Below the pieces are notes generated by a model that had not been told where the DNA came from, did no database searches, and saw only the letters and a program-made list of their open reading frames with translations. A stretch of 64,000 nucleotides of DNA. Source: Sulfurimonas paralvinellae. GTDB taxonomy: Bacteria; Campylobacterota; Campylobacteria; Campylobacterales; Sulfurimonadaceae. Positions 44,590-61,469 of this stretch are shown one piece after another. The position numbers and the translations under genes are program-made. Positions within the stretch are counted from its first letter, which is position 1. Every line of letters begins with the position of its first letter. The stretch lies in assembly GCF_014905135.1 (NCBI RefSeq), contig NZ_CP041406.1, forward strand, positions 248,001 through 312,000. The letters run 5' to 3'.

Positions 44590-47500
44590 ATGAAACAGTA
44601 TAACTACATTTATGACACACAAGATGCATTTCAAAACTTTTTACAAGAAAGATCCATCAAGAATGAGGGTCGAAATATTCTCATTCAAATGTTCACTTCA
44701 GAACACTCTTTGGAAGATGCTGTAAAAATAGCCGAGGAGATAACGACGGTGCTGCCTCACGCAGCCATCATCGGTGCTTCAACCGCAGGTGAGATAATTT
44801 CAGGAAAGATTCTTGAAAAAAGTACAGTGCTGAGCATCTCTGTTTTTGAAAAAACTTCCATTGAACTTTTCAGTGCTTCTGCCGAGGACTCATACAAACT
44901 TGGACTCTTGCTTTCAAAACAGATATTTAACGCAAAGACAAAATGTGTCATTACCTTTGTAGACGGCTTACAGCATAACGGGCAAGAGTATCTTCAAGGC
45001 TTAAATGCGATGAACTACAACAATGCTGTTATTGCAGGCGGTATGGCAGCGGATATGCTGCACTTTGAAAAGACTTACACGATATGCGGTACAAAAGTTT
45101 CTCGCGGCTGTGCCGTCTGTGTCGCACTCTCGGGTGAAGAGCTCGAAGTACTGCAGGATTACAATCTCGGATGGAGAGCGGTAGGTCCGATATTTACGAT
45201 TACAAAATCAGACGGTGCAAGAGTCTATGAGATCAACAATCGCCCTGTAAAAGATCTCTATAAAGAGGTTTTGGGGAGTTTTGCAGTTGAAAATATGCCG
45301 GCTTCTACCATAGAGTTTCCTTTGATCTTACAAGATGGCGATATGCTCGTAGCGCGTTCTCTGCTCAGTGTTTCTAAAGACGGCAGTATACTTTATGGTG
45401 GTAATCTTGAAGAGGGTGCTGAAGTGCGCTTTGGCATTGGCAGCAGAACTTTGGTCAATCAGTACAATCCAAGTGAAGCGCTTCTGGAATCTCAGTCGCT
45501 GCAGGCCTGCTTCATCTACTCCTGTATCGCGCGGAAGATGTTTCTTGACAAAGAGCTTGAAAAGAGTTTCAAGATCATAGAAAATACAGCCCCTTCAAGC
45601 GGTTTTTTTACCTATGGGGAGTTTTTTTTCAATGATCAAAAGACGAAACTGCTCAATATTACAACAACACTGCTCTTTTTACGTGAAAAAGGCACAGTTG
45701 GTGACACAGAGCATCATGACAGAACCAAAGAGACTATTAAAAACCAATCAAAGACGGATGGTGCTCTTTTTAATCTCATAGATTATGTGACAACTGAGCT
45801 AAAAGAACAGGAAAAAGGCTTTAAAAGTTCAAAATTTCAGCTTGATGAGTTTTTAAAGGCACTCGATTCTGTTGTTATCATTTCTCGAACAGATACTGAT
45901 GGGATTATCACTTATGTAAATGAGCGATTTGAAGAGATAAGCGGTTACACAAAAGAAGAGTTGATAGGAAAACCGCACAGTATTGTCCGTAATCCGAATG
46001 TAGAAGATGCAGTCTTTGCAAAGATGTGGGAGACGATTACAAAAGGAAATATCTGGAAGGGCGAATTTTCCAATCGGGCAAAAGACGGCTCTCTCTATTA
46101 TGTGAAATCATCCATTATTCCTATCCATGACGAGAACAGCGAGATCATCGAGTATATGGCCATACGTGAGGACGTAACCTCTTTGGTGGAGAGCAGAAAA
46201 AAAGCCGAAGCTGCCGAAGCTGCACAGTCTATGTTCTTGGCAAATATGTCTCATGAGATTCGTACGCCTATGAACGGCATACTCGGTTTTTCAGAGCTGC
46301 TTGCCAAAACAAAACTTGATGCTTCGCAGCAGAAGTATATAAAAGCGATCAACAGCTCAACAAAGATACTGCTTGATATTGTCAATGATATTCTTGACTC
46401 TTCCAAGATAACAAGCAACAAGATAGTGTTTGAAAAACTTGCCATCAATCCTTACGAAGAGTTTGCGACGACCTATGAGCTTTTAAAAACAACGGCGCAA
46501 GAGAAATCGATTAACTATGTATCTGAAATCGATGAAAATATCTCAAAATGTCTGTTGGGCGATGCGACAAGACTGCGTCAAATCAAGATCAATCTGCTCT
46601 CAAATGCCATTAAGTTCACACCGAAGTTCGGCGAAGTGAGATTCACTGTCTCTTTGGTCACAAGTGATGCAAAGAGTCAGACGCTTCTTTTTAGTGTAGA
46701 GGACAGTGGTATAGGCATAGCAAAAGAGAAACTGCAAGACATTTTCAAACCATTCTCACAAGCAGATGCCTCCACTACTAGAAAATTTGGCGGTACGGGT
46801 TTGGGGCTGAGTATCAGTTCTGATCTCATCAAAGCCTTTGGCAGTGAACTGAAAGTAGATTCTGAGGTCGGTAAGGGAAGCAGATTCTATTTTACAATGC
46901 GTTTTGATATTTGTGAAGATGAGGTTACTAAAGAAGTGCCGGCTGCTGATGCAGTGTGTCAAAATGATGAAGAGTGCAACAAGCTGCACCTCAATGTGTT
47001 GGCAGCTGAAGATTATGATGTTAACAGAATGCTTATTGAATCCATTTTTGAAAAATACAAAAATATTGAACTCTCTTTTGCCGTTAACGGTAAAGATGCC
47101 ATAGAAAAACTGCAGCAAAATGATTTTGATCTCGTGTTGATGGATATCAATATGCCTGTTCTCAACGGTATTGACGCAACACGCTACATACGCCAAAAGC
47201 TGCACAGAAAAGTGCCTATAGTCGCTTTGACTGCAAATGCTCTTGAGGGTGACAGAGAAAAATTTCTTGAATGCGGCATGGATGAGTATCTCTCAAAACC
47301 CATCGATGTGGAAGCATTGGAAAATATTTTATGCAAATATTCAAAAACCGAAACAGAGATGTATTCACGTTACATAGATACGGTTTTGGAGCGTTTGAAG
47401 TTAAAACTTGGACTTTCTGAGACAGTTTCTAAAAAACTTTTGAAAACTTTTTTAGAGAGTTTAAAAGAGATACTTCCGGAGCTTCAAGAAGCACTGGAAC

Positions 47501-47691
47501 TTAAAGATGTTCAAAAAGTCTATGAAACTGCTCATAAGCTCAAAGGTGCGGCAGGAGCACTTTACATAGGTGAAATCTATGAGATAATGCTGAAAATTGA
47601 AACAGCGGCACAGCAGGGTATCATAGTTGAATGTGAAGAGGATATGAAACAAGTCTGTGAATATGTGACTGTTTTGGAGAAAGCACTTTAA
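44590..47691 (+). CDS. Hybrid sensor histidine kinase: FIST, PAS, HisKA, HATPase, REC, HPt
   Basis: A 1033-residue soluble multi-domain kinase. FIST_N (about residues 25-215) and FIST_C (about 225-365) form the sensor, a class thought to bind small ligands such as amino acids. PAS follows (about 415-520, GIITYVNERFEEISGYTKEELIGKPHSIVRNP), then HisKA with H555 in MSHEIRTPMNG, HATPase (NLLSNAIKFTPKFGEV, GTGLGLSIS), a receiver with D852 in LVLMDINMPVLNG, and a C-terminal HPt with H982 in AHKLKGAAGAL. All phosphorelay residues are present. There is no membrane helix, so it senses inside the cell. No response regulator is adjacent. Confidence 0.93.
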   Translation: MKQYNYIYDTQDAFQNFLQERSIKNEGRNILIQMFTSEHSLEDAVKIAEEITTVLPHAAIIGASTAGEIISGKILEKSTVLSISVFEKTSIELFSASAEDSYKLGLLLSKQIFNAKTKCVITFVDGLQHNGQEYLQGLNAMNYNNAVIAGGMAADMLHFEKTYTICGTKVSRGCAVCVALSGEELEVLQDYNLGWRAVGPIFTITKSDGARVYEINNRPVKDLYKEVLGSFAVENMPASTIEFPLILQDGDMLVARSLLSVSKDGSILYGGNLEEGAEVRFGIGSRTLVNQYNPSEALLESQSLQACFIYSCIARKMFLDKELEKSFKIIENTAPSSGFFTYGEFFFNDQKTKLLNITTTLLFLREKGTVGDTEHHDRTKETIKNQSKTDGALFNLIDYVTTELKEQEKGFKSSKFQLDEFLKALDSVVIISRTDTDGIITYVNERFEEISGYTKEELIGKPHSIVRNPNVEDAVFAKMWETITKGNIWKGEFSNRAKDGSLYYVKSSIIPIHDENSEIIEYMAIREDVTSLVESRKKAEAAEAAQSMFLANMSHEIRTPMNGILGFSELLAKTKLDASQQKYIKAINSSTKILLDIVNDILDSSKITSNKIVFEKLAINPYEEFATTYELLKTTAQEKSINYVSEIDENISKCLLGDATRLRQIKINLLSNAIKFTPKFGEVRFTVSLVTSDAKSQTLLFSVEDSGIGIAKEKLQDIFKPFSQADASTTRKFGGTGLGLSISSDLIKAFGSELKVDSEVGKGSRFYFTMRFDICEDEVTKEVPAADAVCQNDEECNKLHLNVLAAEDYDVNRMLIESIFEKYKNIELSFAVNGKDAIEKLQQNDFDLVLMDINMPVLNGIDATRYIRQKLHRKVPIVALTANALEGDREKFLECGMDEYLSKPIDVEALENILCKYSKTETEMYSRYIDTVLERLKLKLGLSETVSKKLLKTFLESLKEILPELQEALELKDVQKVYETAHKLKGAAGALYIGEIYEIMLKIETAAQQGIIVECEEDMKQVCEYVTVLEKAL

Positions 47692-53497: not shown

Positions 53498-53524
53498 ACT
53501 AAAAAGAGAAAATCTCTTTTTAGT
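53498..53524. terminator. Bidirectional intrinsic terminator between bcp and the DUF3373 gene
   Basis: Perfect 12-bp stem ACTAAAAAGAGA / TCTCTTTTTAGT with loop AAA. The A-run in one arm and T-run in the other let it work on both strands, as suits two convergent genes. It includes the stop codon of the minus-strand gene. Confidence 0.75.
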
Positions 53525-55145
53525 ATCTGTAGCGGAGATAGAAACGAATGTCCTGTGCTTTGTCAACATAATTTGCTGCACCAGGCATTGTTGAGGATAT
53601 CTCTGAAGCATCTCCTGAAGTGGCTCCGAAGAAACCGTTACTTCCTGCATATTTGTAATCTATATACGTATAGCGAATTTGAAGAGAAAAAATGTCATCT
53701 ACAAGCGGTTCTGTGAAATAGGCTTCATATGCATCACCACGTGCAGCGACTTTTGAACCGATGTTTGTGTCTTCAGCATACGTGATACTTCTCCAGTACT
53801 GTGTACCGTGGTTATATTCAAGCCCCCAGCGTCCCTCTTCTGAGATGAGTGAAGGAAATTGTGTACCAACCCAGTAAGAGTAACCTGTTTTACTTTCACC
53901 ATCTTGAGCAGTTGCATCAAGCATTTTTTGATCTTTCTTTGGATCAGTAATACTCATTGCTCCACTTACAAAGAAGATAGTGTCATCTAAGAAGTCAGAA
54001 AGACCGTCACCGATGCCGTTTGCAATAAAGTTCGCCGTGATTGAATGCATACCTCCAACAGTTGTAAAACCTTGGGGCTGATTTTGAGGGTTAACAGCAT
54101 CTATTAGGTTGTTAGCATAGTAATATTGTGTATTGATGCTATACTGTCCATTGTCATATGGGACAAAGATAAGACCTGCTAAATCAATATTTGGATTTGC
54201 CCCTTGTGAACTGTCAACACTTGAGTAAGGGGTAGAAGTGAATTTTGGAGCAGCATTGCTCATACCGCGGCCGGCACAGAATTTGACATACATACCATCA
54301 ACACCCGTAAGGCTCTCCAAACCAAATTTTGCGCTTAAACCGTCAAACTCGACATTGATAGAGTGTCCCATCGGAGATGAAGCGTGATCGTCATCTCTAA
54401 GATTGATAAGGTGACCGTTTGTTGATGGACGGCGACCGATGCTGAATGTCCATGGTATATCAGCTCCTGCAAATTCATCATCTTTATATAGGAAGTAGAC
54501 TGAACGAACTCTGAGTTTGTCATCATATGCATTTTCATTTGAAACCCAGTCAAATGTTTCAAAACTTGCATTTGCCGGATTACTTGCACCGCTTCTTGCA
54601 CCGAAAGCTTTATTGTAAGCTAGTTGACCGTGGAAGCTTAGGTTCTCAGTCGCTGCCCAAGACATATTCATCCAGAATCTGTTTGTCATGAAAGCATCGT
54701 TTTTAGCTTTTGAACCGTCTGCCATCTTATAGTCAAGGTTTTCAATGGCAAATCTGTAGTCAACACCAAATTTTAAATGATTTGAGTTCGTATTTTTGTT
54801 GAGCTCTGCAACATTTTCCTGAAGCTCTTCTACTTTATCTTCAATGCTCTCTTCATCATCTTCATCTTCGTCATCTGCCTCATCATCAGCTGACTCTTTG
54901 GAAGCGACTGCAACTTTCTCTTCATCCTCATCTGCTTCGTCATCGGCTTCATCGTCCGCTTCTTCTGCATCAGCGGATTCTGCAGATGCAGCTTTTTCAG
55001 CTTTGAGAGCGTCAAGCTCCTGTTTCATCTGCTTCATCTGAAGCTCCATCTGTTGAAAACGGTCATACATAGTATTGTCTGCACTGAGACTTGTTGTCCC
55101 AAGAAGTGCTGCTGTTACTAGTGAAAGTAGTAAAGGCTTATTCAT
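53520..55145 (-). CDS. DUF3373 family outer-membrane protein with acidic hinge
   Basis: An exported protein of 541 residues. I start it at 55145 (MNKPLLLSLVTAALLGTTSLSA), preceded by GGGAAG; the open frame reaches 13 codons further. After the signal come a short coiled coil (QQMELQMKQMKQELDALKAEK), an Asp/Glu/Ala-rich hinge (about residues 50-110), a second short coiled coil and a beta barrel ending YVDKAQDIRFYLRYRY. The barrel matches the DUF3373 porin-like family common in sulfur-oxidising Campylobacterota; cargo unknown. Confidence 0.82.
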   Translation of the reverse strand: MNKPLLLSLVTAALLGTTSLSADNTMYDRFQQMELQMKQMKQELDALKAEKAASAESADAEEADDEADDEADEDEEKVAVASKESADDEADDEDEDDEESIEDKVEELQENVAELNKNTNSNHLKFGVDYRFAIENLDYKMADGSKAKNDAFMTNRFWMNMSWAATENLSFHGQLAYNKAFGARSGASNPANASFETFDWVSNENAYDDKLRVRSVYFLYKDDEFAGADIPWTFSIGRRPSTNGHLINLRDDDHASSPMGHSINVEFDGLSAKFGLESLTGVDGMYVKFCAGRGMSNAAPKFTSTPYSSVDSSQGANPNIDLAGLIFVPYDNGQYSINTQYYYANNLIDAVNPQNQPQGFTTVGGMHSITANFIANGIGDGLSDFLDDTIFFVSGAMSITDPKKDQKMLDATAQDGESKTGYSYWVGTQFPSLISEEGRWGLEYNHGTQYWRSITYAEDTNIGSKVAARGDAYEAYFTEPLVDDIFSLQIRYTYIDYKYAGSNGFFGATSGDASEISSTMPGAANYVDKAQDIRFYLRYRY

Positions 55146-55303
55146 TTCTTCCCTTTTTTGTGATATATCTGTGATACTATACATAATCTATTATAAAGAT
55201 AGTTTTAAATGAGAGGATTTTTCTATAATATTTTTTTATATATCGTGGACTTATTTATATTATTAGAAAAATATGAAAAAGCTAGATTTAAACATAAGTT
55301 GAG

Positions 55304-57400: not shown

Positions 57401-58045
57401 ATGAATTTAGTATCCGCAAAAAATATATCACACTCTTTTGATTATGAACTTTTCTCCAATGTTTCTTTGGATCTTGCTACAAAAGAGAGCATCGCCATCA
57501 TCGGCATAAGCGGAAGCGGAAAATCAACACTTTTGCATCTTCTCTCAACACTCTTAAAACCTAACAGCGGAGAGGTTAAGATACTGGGTGAAGATGTACT
57601 CTCTTTAAAACCTAAAAAGCTTTCATATCTCAGACGTCATGAACTTGGTCTTGTCTTTCAGTCTCACTATCTTTTTAAAGGTTTCAGTGGGTATGAAAAT
57701 CTTGAAGTTTCAGAGATATTGGCGCAAGAACCCATTGAAGATGCACTACTAAAGCGGTTGGAGATAGAACACTGTATCCATCAAAAAGTGACGGAACTCT
57801 CAGGTGGACAGCAGCAGCGTGTTTCCATTGCAAGAGTGCTGACAAAAAAACCGACGATCATTTTTGCAGATGAACCGACAGGAAATCTTGATACGGTAAC
57901 GGCGCATGAGGTCATGGATCTTTTCTTTGAGTATATCGAGCAGCATGAAGCAGGCATGATCCTTGTCACACATGACGATACACTGGCACATCTGTGCGAT
58001 AAAGTCTATAAACTCGAAGACAAAGAACTTGTAAGGGTAAAATAG
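57401..58045 (+). CDS. LolD-type ABC transporter ATP-binding protein
   Basis: A 214-residue ATPase of the LolD/MacB group. Walker [15 protein letters not shown] near residue 36, Q-loop [16 protein letters not shown], signature [15 protein letters not shown] and Walker [13 protein letters not shown] are complete. No permease gene is adjacent; in this phylum such a subunit often serves lipoprotein release or FtsE-like roles, but the partner cannot be told. The stop overlaps the fliR GTG start by one base. Confidence 0.88.
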
Positions 58046-58809
58046 TGGAATTGGCGCAGATATTTAACGAAGCAAATATTGTCGCTTTTTTACTGCTTTT
58101 TTTTCGATTTGCAGCACTTTTTATTGCTGTACCCATCTTTTCGCACAACAACATTCCTATGAACATCAAAGCGACGATGGCCTTTTTCTTTACAGTGGTC
58201 TTTTATGCTTCCATGCCGCCTCTGCACATCGCTTTGGATATTCCGACAATTATATTAGCCATACTGAGTGAATTTTTTCTCGGAATGGTCGTAGGTGTCG
58301 CTTTGCAACTGGCATACAATGTCATCACTTTTGCAGGCGGACAGATATCTTTTATGATGGGTTTTTCCATGGCAAGTGCCATTGATCCCCAATCTGGTGT
58401 CTCGATGCCGATTATTTCACAGTTCTTATCGCTTTTGGCCTTGATGGTTTTATTGGCTTTAAATCTGCATCACTGGATGTTGCTCTTTATCGATCATAGT
58501 CTTAAAACGGTTCCGCTTGGCGGATTTTTGATGAGTAACGATGAGTTTCATTACCTTATGCATGCCGCGTCAAATATGTTCCTTGTCGGTTTTATAATCG
58601 CCTTTCCTATCATCGCTCTTTCATGGCTTGCCGATGTTATTTTTGGAATGCTTATGAAAACAATGCCGCAGTTTAACCTTTTGGTCATAGGGTTTCCTAT
58701 TAAGATCATGGTTGCCTTCGCTGTTTTAATTGCAACACTGACAGCTGTCATGCTGATACTCAAAGGTCAGGTGCAGGAAGCTTTTAATGCTTTGGAAATG
58801 CTTTTTTAG
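58045..58809 (+). CDS. fliR: Flagellar biosynthesis protein FliR
   Basis: Integral membrane component of the flagellar type III export gate; 254 residues with about seven helices. FRFAALFIAVPIFSHNNIPMNIKATMAFFFTVVFY and IDPQSGVSMPIISQFLSLLALMVLLALNLHHWML are FliR signatures. GTG start at 58045 overlaps the ABC ATPase stop. It is the only flagellar export gene in the window; fliP, fliQ and flhB are not here. Confidence 0.93.
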   Translation: MELAQIFNEANIVAFLLLFFRFAALFIAVPIFSHNNIPMNIKATMAFFFTVVFYASMPPLHIALDIPTIILAILSEFFLGMVVGVALQLAYNVITFAGGQISFMMGFSMASAIDPQSGVSMPIISQFLSLLALMVLLALNLHHWMLLFIDHSLKTVPLGGFLMSNDEFHYLMHAASNMFLVGFIIAFPIIALSWLADVIFGMLMKTMPQFNLLVIGFPIKIMVAFAVLIATLTAVMLILKGQVQEAFNALEMLF

Positions 58810-58861: not shown

Positions 58862-60856
58862 GTGAAGATACTACTTTTAAATGATAATCCGGTTGTAAAC
58901 AAGTTAGTTACATTAAGTGCTCAGAAAACTTCTGACGAATTGGATATAGTCACAAATGTTAATGATGTTGTAGGAACTTCATATGATTTAGTAGTAGTTG
59001 ATGATTCGATAGGCAGTGATGATGTTTTAGAAGCTTTGCGTTCAAAGCTGGCATTTTCGAAAAGTCTCTATATCTGTTCACGTGATGCCGTAGAAGCCAC
59101 AGGCTTTGATGCTACTTTGAAAAAGCCTTTTTTACCGACGGATCTTGTAGAGTTGTTTGCTATGTTTGACAAAGAGATAGAAAAAGATGCCGATGCTCCA
59201 CAAAGTCAAAGTGTTGAAGAAGGGTTGCAGGAAAGTGATACTGCCGCAACTGCAACGCACGAGGAAGAGATAGAAGAGCTGGAGGATATAGACGGCATGG
59301 GTGATTTGGATCATCTCGATGAGTTGGATGAGTTTGAAGATATTGCCCTTGATGAAGAAGTTGACCTTGAAATGGATGATCTTGAACTTGATGTAGAAGG
59401 TGGTGAAGATCTGGTACTCGATGATGACAGCGAAGATGAAACACTCATAGGCGAAGAATCTTTGGAAGATGAGAATCTTGGTGAGAGTGTTTTAGATGAT
59501 GAAGAGGCACAAAAAGTAAAAGAACTGCTTGATGAAACGGACGAAGAACCTTCGGATGATTTTACACTTGAACTTGATGAAGAGGGTGACACCTTTCATT
59601 TTGATCCGCATGTAGCATCTAAAGAACTGGGATTGCCTCTTGATGTAGTTGAGGATTTTGTAAATGATTTCATAGAACAGGCTTTGGAGTACAAAGAGGA
59701 GCTATATGCATCGGCAGTGGCACAAGATTATACTCGTATTCATGAAATATCTCATAAGCTCAAAGGTGTTGCAGCAAATTTACGTGTTGAAAATGCATTG
59801 AATGCTTTAACGACAATCAATACATCTTCGGATGAGAAAGAGATAAAAGAGAAACTCAATCAATTCTATGAAATAATAGATAAATTAAAAAGCACGCAAC
59901 ACGCAGATGAAGAAGTTGACTTTGATATGGCTTTAGACCTTGAAGATGAAGCAGATGCGGATATTGGTGATGATGATACACTCAATGAATTGGATGAAGC
60001 AGTCCAAGAGGAAGAGATAGAGGATCAGGAACTTGAGGAGCTTGAAAGTGACAGTGTAGAAGAGCTTGAGGATTTCATTGATGAAGCGGTCACGGAAGAA
60101 CTTGCTCTAGAGGAGAAAGAAGAAGAGATTGCTGAAGATGAAGAACTTGACTTTGATATGGCTTTAGATCTTGAAGATGAAGCTGATGCCGATATAGCAG
60201 AGGATGAAGATTTATTGACCTTGGATGATGAGTCAGAAGAGTTGGAATTGGATAGTTTTGAAGATGAGAGTGAACTTGAAAATGACAGCGAGGAAGAGCT
60301 TGAAGATATCATTGACGAAGCAGTGACAGAGGAACTGGAAGAAGAAGGTGATAGTGTCGAAGAGCTTGAGGATATGATTGATGAGGAAGTAACACAAGAA
60401 CTTACAGAGGAAGCATCTGAAGAACCGCAAGAGAGTGATGACATTGCAGATATTGAGCAGCAGATTCAAGAAGCGGTGGAAGATTTGAGCGAAGAGGACC
60501 TTGAGAGTGAACTCGATGATGAAACACTTCTTGAAATTGCAGCTTCTGAGATAGATTCGCTTGATGCATTAAGCTCGAAAGATCTGAAACTCGCTCTTGG
60601 TGAAGAAGTAGAAGATGATGAACCTGAAGAAGAAGTAACTCCAGAAGATGTGCAGGAGTTATTAGAAGATGCCGAGGTGGATGAAGATGTGCTAGAAGCT
60701 GCTGAAGAAGACTTGGAAGAGGAAAAGGAAGCCAAGATAGAAGGTGTGGATGCTCTGAAAAAACTTTTAAAAGCACTCGATGACAAAGAGATAGCGGCTT
60801 CAATGAAAGACATGAAAATCACTATAAATATAGAACTAGGTAGTAATAATGAGTAA
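58862..60856 (+). CDS. Highly acidic protein with receiver-like and HPt domains
   Basis: A 664-residue protein. Residues 1-110 form a receiver-like domain (MKILLLNDNPVV, LVVVDDSIG near 43-51 with candidate phospho-Asp 47/48, and LKKPFLPTDLVELF supplying the conserved Lys). An HPt-like domain follows near 250-345 with H298 in ISHKLKGVAANLRV. Most of the rest is Glu/Asp-rich repeats, including two near-identical copies of DFDMALDLEDEADADI and three of ELEDxIDEAVTEEL type. A lysine-rich end (LKKLLKALDDKEIA) closes it. Its place upstream of gmk-tatA-argS matches the poly-E-rich protein gene of Helicobacter (from memory). GTG start; TACAAT at 58821-58826 may be its promoter. Confidence 0.8.
   Translation: MKILLLNDNPVVNKLVTLSAQKTSDELDIVTNVNDVVGTSYDLVVVDDSIGSDDVLEALRSKLAFSKSLYICSRDAVEATGFDATLKKPFLPTDLVELFAMFDKEIEKDADAPQSQSVEEGLQESDTAATATHEEEIEELEDIDGMGDLDHLDELDEFEDIALDEEVDLEMDDLELDVEGGEDLVLDDDSEDETLIGEESLEDENLGESVLDDEEAQKVKELLDETDEEPSDDFTLELDEEGDTFHFDPHVASKELGLPLDVVEDFVNDFIEQALEYKEELYASAVAQDYTRIHEISHKLKGVAANLRVENALNALTTINTSSDEKEIKEKLNQFYEIIDKLKSTQHADEEVDFDMALDLEDEADADIGDDDTLNELDEAVQEEEIEDQELEELESDSVEELEDFIDEAVTEELALEEKEEEIAEDEELDFDMALDLEDEADADIAEDEDLLTLDDESEELELDSFEDESELENDSEEELEDIIDEAVTEELEEEGDSVEELEDMIDEEVTQELTEEASEEPQESDDIADIEQQIQEAVEDLSEEDLESELDDETLLEIAASEIDSLDALSSKDLKLALGEEVEDDEPEEEVTPEDVQELLEDAEVDEDVLEAAEEDLEEEKEAKIEGVDALKKLLKALDDKEIAASMKDMKITINIELGSNNE
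59918..60196 (+). repeat. Direct repeat pair in the acidic protein gene
   Basis: Two 48-base copies at 59918-59965 and 60149-60196 encode the same 15 residues and then I or A-starting context; they differ only at a few third positions. They lie 231 bases apart in frame, so recombination between them would delete or duplicate 77 codons without breaking the frame. Confidence 0.75.
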
Positions 60857-61469
60857 AATAAACGGTGCGGTACTGGTGCTTTCAGGTCCAAGCGGAGCTG
60901 GAAAAAGTTCTTTGATCCATAAGATCATTGATGATATAGGTGAATCTTATTTTTCTATCTCAACAACGACACGCCCGATCAGAAAAGGCGAAAAGAATGG
61001 TGTTGATTATTATTTTGTTGACAAAGAAGAGTTTGAACGTGAGATAGAAGAGGATCAGTTCTTAGAATATGCTGTTGTGCATGGCAACTATTACGGTACT
61101 TCATTAAGACCGGTCAAGCAGGCACTCTCTGAGGGTAAACTTGTCATATTTGATATAGATGTGCAGGGTAACAGCGCTATAAACAGTCGATTGGGAGATA
61201 TCACCACTTCAGTATTCATTACACCGCCGACACTTTCAGAACTCAAAAGAAGACTTGAGAATCGCTCAACTGATGAACAGGAAGTTATTGACAGACGAAT
61301 CAAAATGGCTAGAAAAGAGATACAAAGGGTTGCTGAATATGAGTATCTTCTGATCAATGACGACCTCGATGCAGCAGCAGACAAGCTGAGAATAATTGCA
61401 ACAACAGCTCGATTTAAAAAATCAAATGATGAAATAAATGCATTTGTCAATCAATGGGAAGATTTATAA
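60849..61469 (+). CDS. gmk: Guanylate kinase
   Basis: Phosphorylates GMP to GDP; 206 residues. P-loop LSGPSGAGKSSLIHK (residues 12-26), the GMP-binding STTTRPIRKGEKNGVDYYFV and VIFDIDVQGNSAI are complete. It overlaps the acidic protein gene by 8 bases, so the two are translated from one mRNA. Confidence 0.97.
   Translation: MSKINGAVLVLSGPSGAGKSSLIHKIIDDIGESYFSISTTTRPIRKGEKNGVDYYFVDKEEFEREIEEDQFLEYAVVHGNYYGTSLRPVKQALSEGKLVIFDIDVQGNSAINSRLGDITTSVFITPPTLSELKRRLENRSTDEQEVIDRRIKMARKEIQRVAEYEYLLINDDLDAAADKLRIIATTARFKKSNDEINAFVNQWEDL

Follow-up and report, generated by a model that had tools for sequence, protein, structure and literature searches.

A ChePep-type protein of Sulfurimonas paralvinellae with a rare and apparently constrained histidine phosphotransfer domain, very probably gained by capture

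Between fliR and gmk, Sulfurimonas paralvinellae carries a gene whose product joins a receiver-like domain, a histidine phosphotransfer (HPt) domain and long acidic stretches. The locus raises the question of what this protein is and how an HPt came to lie in it. The gene belongs to the window, that is, the whole stretch of 64,000 nucleotides that was analysed (contig NZ_CP041406.1, positions 248,001 to 312,000, forward strand), and its features are the following:

58045..58809, plus strand: fliR, upstream neighbour (name taken from the initial annotation)
58862..60856, plus strand: chePep-type gene encoding 664 aa from a GTG start (assigned by receiver profile, C-terminal motif and gmk as neighbour)
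58862..59197, plus strand: receiver-like domain, aa 1-112 (alignment, AlphaFold2 model, PDB matches and the NCBIfam ChePep model at E 2.6e-4)
59198..59578, plus strand: first acidic stretch, aa 113-239, holding the motif ESVLDDEEAQKVKELLDE from aa 208
59591..59902, plus strand: HPt domain, very probably captured, about aa 244-347, with the phospho-His motif HKLKG (Pfam, AlphaFold2, Foldseek and alignments)
59903..60736, plus strand: second acidic stretch (aa 348-625), in which the repeats are degenerate
60737..60853, plus strand: conserved C-terminal motif, aa 626-664 (sequence comparison with ChePep relatives)
60849..61469, plus strand: gmk, downstream neighbour, sharing 8 nt with the end of chePep (ORF list)

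By the window ORFs the gene starts 52 nt past the end of fliR, and the order chePep-gmk-tatA-argS is present at this locus. The initial annotation had noted its likeness to the Helicobacter poly-E-rich gene upstream of gmk-tatA-argS, and the neighbourhood is indeed that of ChePep. It had also taken the product for a conserved but uncharacterised protein, which we reject because the protein falls in the ChePep family: the 'poly E-rich protein' HP0322 of Helicobacter pylori was renamed ChePep and matters for chemotaxis (PMC3561388), with further support in PMC9665402 and PMC11237671. Based on the receiver profile, the C-terminal motif and the gmk neighbourhood, we regard the S. paralvinellae protein as almost certainly a member of this family. 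The NCBIfam equivalog model for the Helicobacter-type protein (NF041272) matched its N-terminus only, at 19.9 bits (E 2.6e-4), missing the curated cut-off of 650 bits, and two HPt-less Sulfurimonas ChePeps gave no match to the model at E<=0.1, so other evidence of membership was needed. In a phylum-wide sample of 200 genomes the cut-off was exceeded in 8, all of one genus, and it was exceeded in none of 14 controls. A receiver profile built from 39 Sulfurimonadaceae sequences matched 191 of the 200 phylum genomes. It also recovered the ChePep frame at all 30 loci examined from other families (E from 1.5e-7 down to 1.5e-23, against a small database), these being the best 30 of 44 genomes matched by the NCBIfam ChePep model within the same order. 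A C-terminal motif of the same kind, judged by eye, was seen in 23 of these 30 frames and gmk was found in the stretch at 23 of the 30 loci; among the remaining seven, six were cut by a contig or stretch end and one had a frame that stops early. tatA was located at 15 of the 30 loci and argS at 13, most of the remainder ending too soon, and fliR homologues lay upstream at two. Within Sulfurimonadaceae gmk adjoined chePep at 40 of 41 loci, the sole miss being a contig edge. The S. paralvinellae protein itself shows the N-terminal receiver-like domain with its KPFLPT motif, an acidic low-complexity centre and the C-terminal LL..L...NI.I motif.

Pfam gave no match to the N-terminus at E<=1, PF00072 included, so the domain is called receiver-like by fold only. 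Its AlphaFold2 model, made with the family alignment, has a receiver fold (pLDDT 87.0), and a Foldseek search of the PDB gave 111 matches with E no higher than 0.001, the best at 1.7e-5; of the 50 listed nearly all were receivers. By comparison with CheY we take the acidic pair, Asp47 as the phospho-accepting residue, Ser73 as the switch residue and Lys88 to play their usual roles. Asn7 replaces the first acidic residue in 39/39 Sulfurimonadaceae receivers; position 8 (Asp here) and Ser73 are variable, Asp47 and Lys88 are invariant in all 39, and in Helicobacter-type ChePeps the pair is mostly N-Q. Phosphorylation of the receiver across the family thus appears doubtful, and the term pseudo-receiver, used in the initial annotation, is therefore apt in a loose sense.

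The whole protein has a net charge of -215, and its acidic parts sum to 405 aa, 127 aa at 46% Asp plus Glu and 278 aa at 51%. The long acidic character first described is thus borne out, but its repeats are degenerate, with 77-82% to the reference copy for three 65-nt copies and 89% for two 72-nt copies, and TRF reported one 36-bp array. A tandem-repeat account of this part was set aside on these grounds. The strict ESVLDDEEAQKVKELLDE pattern occurs in 61 of 98 complete ChePep sequences, which range from 279 to 723 aa, and a segment of the second acidic stretch (aa ~530-588) is common to most complete relatives. Long Ser-rich ORFs lie antisense to the acidic part (59311-59592 and 60025-60444, minus strand), most likely an artefact of a composition rich in GAA/GAT codons. 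Elsewhere in the window, a gene at 53520-55184 (minus strand) encodes a 554-aa protein with an acidic N-terminal stretch rich in Ala, Glu and Asp followed by a putative outer-membrane porin, and it too has a Ser-rich ORF on its antisense strand.

Concerning the HPt, Pfam PF01627 scored 25.9 bits on the excised domain (cut-off 24.6) and 21.1 bits, below the cut-off, within the whole protein; the model is broad and exceeded its cut-off in 8 of 14 control genomes. The AlphaFold2 model, again with the family alignment, is a helical bundle (pLDDT 94.3). Its top seven Foldseek matches in the PDB are HPt proteins (top TM ~0.8, probability 1.00), with a best E of 6e-3, none reaching 0.001, and a designed four-helix bundle at rank 8. 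The structure check therefore agrees with the initial annotation on both folds, the models matching PDB receivers and HPts, and the HKLKG motif is intact as it had stated. The phospho-His is kept in all four ChePep HPts that we found. Across the six pairs among them NG86 dN/dS lies between 0.09 and 0.38 (0.11 for S. paralvinellae and G344, 0.20 for S. paralvinellae and G026), the pairs with G322 supplying both the highest values and the lowest; these ratios are rough because dS approaches saturation and YN00 gave a value for one of the six pairs, failing for the other five. The domain is under purifying selection. As its histidine, fold and sequence are all constrained, the capacity to exchange phosphate with receivers is probably retained, and a phospho-active HPt is the likely case.

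The HPt is a rare component of ChePep. A ChePep receiver was detected at E<=1e-10 in 123 of the 135 genomes surveyed from the genus, and at least four of these 123 (S. paralvinellae, G344, G026 and G322) bear an HPt within the ChePep frame among the HPt matches listed (to about 3e-7), a lower bound because some ChePep frames of draft genomes are cut by contig ends; the four frames were confirmed on their sequences. A further 26 HPt loci that we inspected (L107-L132) each hold two HPts and belong to a different, double-HPt protein (dHPt). Likewise, 4 of 98 distinct complete ChePep sequences bear an HPt, in a set reduced from 127 rows to 114 distinct sequences, less 16 without a recognised C-terminus, and weighted to close relatives because it was drawn from the best 80 of 207. 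The HPt is thus no part of the conserved protein, as the first description had implied; the folded domain missing from orthologues is the HPt and not the receiver. In the phylum draw, 49 genomes have a match to the HPt type of S. paralvinellae, and this type shares a frame with the receiver in 2 of the 191 (S. paralvinellae and G026) and is absent from the frame in the other 189. This count covers that type, and quite different HPts would escape it; for it, six HPt-matching genomes without a listed receiver position were searched again, together with one listed genome. The accessible text of the later ChePep papers (PMC9665402, PMC11237671, PMC5447363, PMC3561388, PMC7750401 and PMC11634455 among them) yielded no description of an HPt in ChePep, and in that of PMC9321776 ChePep appears solely in the reference list.

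The HPt sits directly after the motif ESVLDDEEAQKVKELLDE and is cleanly absent in the relatives L133, L134 and L135. We built a species tree from fliR, gmk, argS and the receiver (35 rows, quick method), in which the clade of S. paralvinellae has six members (SH-aLRT 95): the HPt is present in S. paralvinellae, G344 (locus L213) and G026 (L136) and missing in L133, L134 and S. indica NW8N (L135). At least four gains or losses are needed on this tree. In it the closely related metagenome-assembled genomes (MAGs) L134 and L213 pair as sisters, with short branches of 0.017 and 0.025; one has the entire HPt and the other lacks it, and their acidic regions also differ in repeat content. In their comparison the gap is placed in repetitive acidic codons, and no clear junction repeat is readable. 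L135 and L136 have common text on both flanks of the HPt, consistent with a loss or a gain there. Since sister lineages live without it, the HPt is not essential to ChePep.

In a 35-row tree of HPt domains, those of S. paralvinellae, G344 and G026 fall on one side of a branch (100/99) and that of G322 lies among the first HPts (HPt1) of the dHPt proteins. A single origin of all four is a borderline case, p-AU being 0.045 when they are forced together. With the second HPts included (67 rows), the ChePep HPts come out as a grade beneath dHPt HPt1, with no clade inside it, not even of the three from S. paralvinellae, G344 and G026; the grade may reflect a long-branch effect. Because of this grade, in place of a clade within dHPt HPt1, the trees do not fix the timing and direct source of the capture. 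An HPt ancestral to ChePep was rejected as the simplest account, its counts of 2/191 in the phylum and 4/123 in the genus calling for a single old gain and very many losses. These distributions and trees make a lineage-specific capture of the HPt into ChePep very probable; within the clade of S. paralvinellae one gain followed by losses is likely, and the HPt of G322 is a possible second capture.

The nearest relative of the HPt in its own genome points to the dHPt protein, whose gene lies in a signalling cluster. This cluster, its dHPt gene and a second hybrid kinase that bears on the argument are as follows:

Own genome, C1:1676406-1682293 (L233:6407-12294): PAS - dHPt - NIT hybrid kinase - receiver cluster (Pfam domains)
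Own genome, C1:1676832-1678532: double-HPt (dHPt) gene, in which Pfam finds HPts only
Window, 44590..47691, plus strand: FIST-PAS-histidine kinase-receiver-HPt hybrid kinase, 1033 aa (Pfam domains)

HPt1 of this dHPt protein has 52% identity to the ChePep HPt, while seven other stretches with HPts in the same genome reach 20-38%; the ChePep HPt and HPt1 have the whole SHKLKGVAANLR helix segment in common. The cluster encodes, in a row, a PAS protein of 137 aa, the dHPt protein of 567 aa, a NIT-HisKA-HATPase-receiver hybrid kinase of 1119 aa and a receiver of 125 aa. Pfam finds no HPt in the NIT kinase, which makes the dHPt protein its presumable natural relay partner. The lack of an own HPt, together with the SHKLKGVAANLR segment common to both domains, also makes the NIT kinase receiver the likeliest partner of the ChePep HPt, and this kinase may tentatively be named as its phosphate donor. 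The kinase is full length in S. paralvinellae, G036, G344, G346 and G322; a genome search found none of this type in G026 or G306. G026 thus keeps its ChePep HPt with no NIT kinase found, which counts mildly against that donor, while the pairing of the two cannot be judged there because its dHPt gene apparently runs off a contig end. The histidine of dHPt HPt1 is kept in 31/31 relatives compared and that of HPt2 is lost in 31/31, so that a degenerate HPt2 is retained beside an intact HPt1 in all of them.

Other HPt proteins also came to light. CheO was considered as the double-HPt protein and no link was found, the accessible part of PMC9665402 describing CheO as encoded on its own, with guaA and purD on either side, and offering no telling motif. 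Among the HPt matches listed, frames of 163-187 aa recur in several other genomes of the genus; a similar small HPt-like protein of 172 aa (L003:1363-1881, minus strand) keeps the histidine in a motif that otherwise differs (HKNLG). It lies beside a frame that we take to resemble the end of htpG.

In H. pylori, ChePep is found at the flagellar pole, and the localisation of ChePep and that of CheZ depend on each other (PMC5447363, PMC7750401; further polar work in PMC11634455). chePep mutants reverse too often (PMC11237671; for C. jejuni PMC9665402), and the mode of action is described as poorly understood (PMC7750401). The S. paralvinellae genome holds a che cluster whose CheA has the usual domains and, at C1:1698167, a CheZ relative of the H. 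pylori type (NF041271, E 3.7e-65, 219.8 bits, below the cut-off of 350). The Pfam CheZ model is sub-threshold in this genome (E 0.005) and has no match at E<=1 in G036, G344 and G026. By analogy, the Sulfurimonas ChePep is quite probably a polar partner of CheZ, and the polar scaffold role suggested in the initial annotation fits the published ChePep work. As in its relatives, the protein would sit with CheZ at the flagellated pole and lower the reversal rate by aiding the action of CheZ on CheY-P, its receiver-like and C-terminal parts serving as conserved interaction ends and the acidic stretch as a flexible spacer. In the present marine lineage an HPt of the dHPt family would have been inserted just after ESVLDDEEAQKVKELLDE and could swap phosphate with a receiver outside core chemotaxis, that of the NIT kinase being the best candidate. 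Through such a capture a second phosphorelay would gain input to the polar ChePep/CheZ site, or drain phosphate there, with an output through the shape of ChePep, through CheZ binding or through phosphate held near the motor. Overall, we consider it likely that domain capture has connected a polar ChePep/CheZ regulator to an additional phosphorelay. As a bolder and rather speculative extension, a sensor phosphorelay of the NIT (nitrate/nitrite) type might have been spliced into polar chemotaxis through this HPt, perhaps twice at the same site (in the S. paralvinellae clade and in G322), and the respiratory state might directly set how CheZ acts and how often cells reverse, bypassing chemoreceptors and CheA.

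The HPt could instead act inside chemotaxis, as a polar phosphate sink by CheZ that draws from CheY-P or from the C-terminal receiver of CheA. CheA here has such a receiver and an HPt of its own, and with ChePep acting together with CheZ near the H. pylori poles a polar HPt would be well placed; yet the captured domain resembles dHPt HPt1 and not CheA P1 (20% identity over 59 columns), and the dHPt gene lies beside a hybrid kinase, outside the che cluster. We therefore hold this reading to be possible and somewhat unlikely. Another donor, proposed in the initial annotation, is the FIST hybrid kinase of the window, which has a receiver and lies ~11 kb off in the same genome. It carries its own receiver and HPt at its end, the latter sharing 27% identity with the ChePep HPt across 90 columns, and shows no operon link, so it was set aside as the cognate donor and its part in phosphorylating ChePep is very improbable. 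The FIST kinase amounts to a complete phosphorelay in one chain.

The domain might also be a mere folded spacer or docking module with no phosphate chemistry, gained and lost freely as the acidic region tolerates insertions. Its absence from three of the six members of the S. paralvinellae clade and the wide range of complete protein lengths (279-723 aa, n=98) speak for this; nevertheless the histidine is kept in all four domains at dN/dS of 0.09-0.38, whereas HPt2 of the dHPt protein, seemingly free of need, lost its own in every relative, and we find a spacer unlikely. An error of assembly or binning as the source of the HPt-bearing frame could be argued from the other three HPt-bearing ChePeps, all of which come from MAGs. 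Four separate assemblies, however, show the HPt at one insertion site in an open, constrained frame, at 28-58% divergence from each other, and the S. paralvinellae genome consists of two contigs and is 100% complete by the tool's estimate; an artefact is extremely improbable. Domain capture into a polar ChePep/CheZ regulator thus remains our preferred reading.

The locus almost certainly encodes a known chemotaxis protein, and the HPt makes it a domain variant that is new, rare and apparently under constraint. Sister pairs with and without the HPt offer a handle on whether input from a second phosphorelay can determine how often cells reverse, and the insertion point marks a site of ChePep that tolerates input, which suggests that the acidic linker may serve as a landing site for signalling domains.

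Compared with known systems, the protein is like ChePep of H. pylori (HP0322) and C. jejuni (CJJ81176_1193) in its receiver-like N-terminus, acidic low-complexity middle, C-terminal motif and position before gmk, but it differs from them in the extra HPt at mid-protein and from Helicobacter-type ChePeps in position 8 of the acidic pair, Asp here and mostly Gln there. The HPt has the fold (TM ~0.7-0.8) and His motif of P. aeruginosa HptB (7c1i), the C. thermophilum HPt (8rqj) and the E. coli YojN HPt (1sr2), although these show ~20% identity to it and lie outside any ChePep-like protein. The dHPt protein shares with it the helix of the His motif but is a different protein, composed by Pfam of HPts only, the second without histidine. 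Finally, CheZ of the H. pylori type is the published partner of ChePep in that species, and its relative in S. paralvinellae, encoded by a separate gene and scoring below the NF041271 cut-off, is a candidate ChePep partner here.
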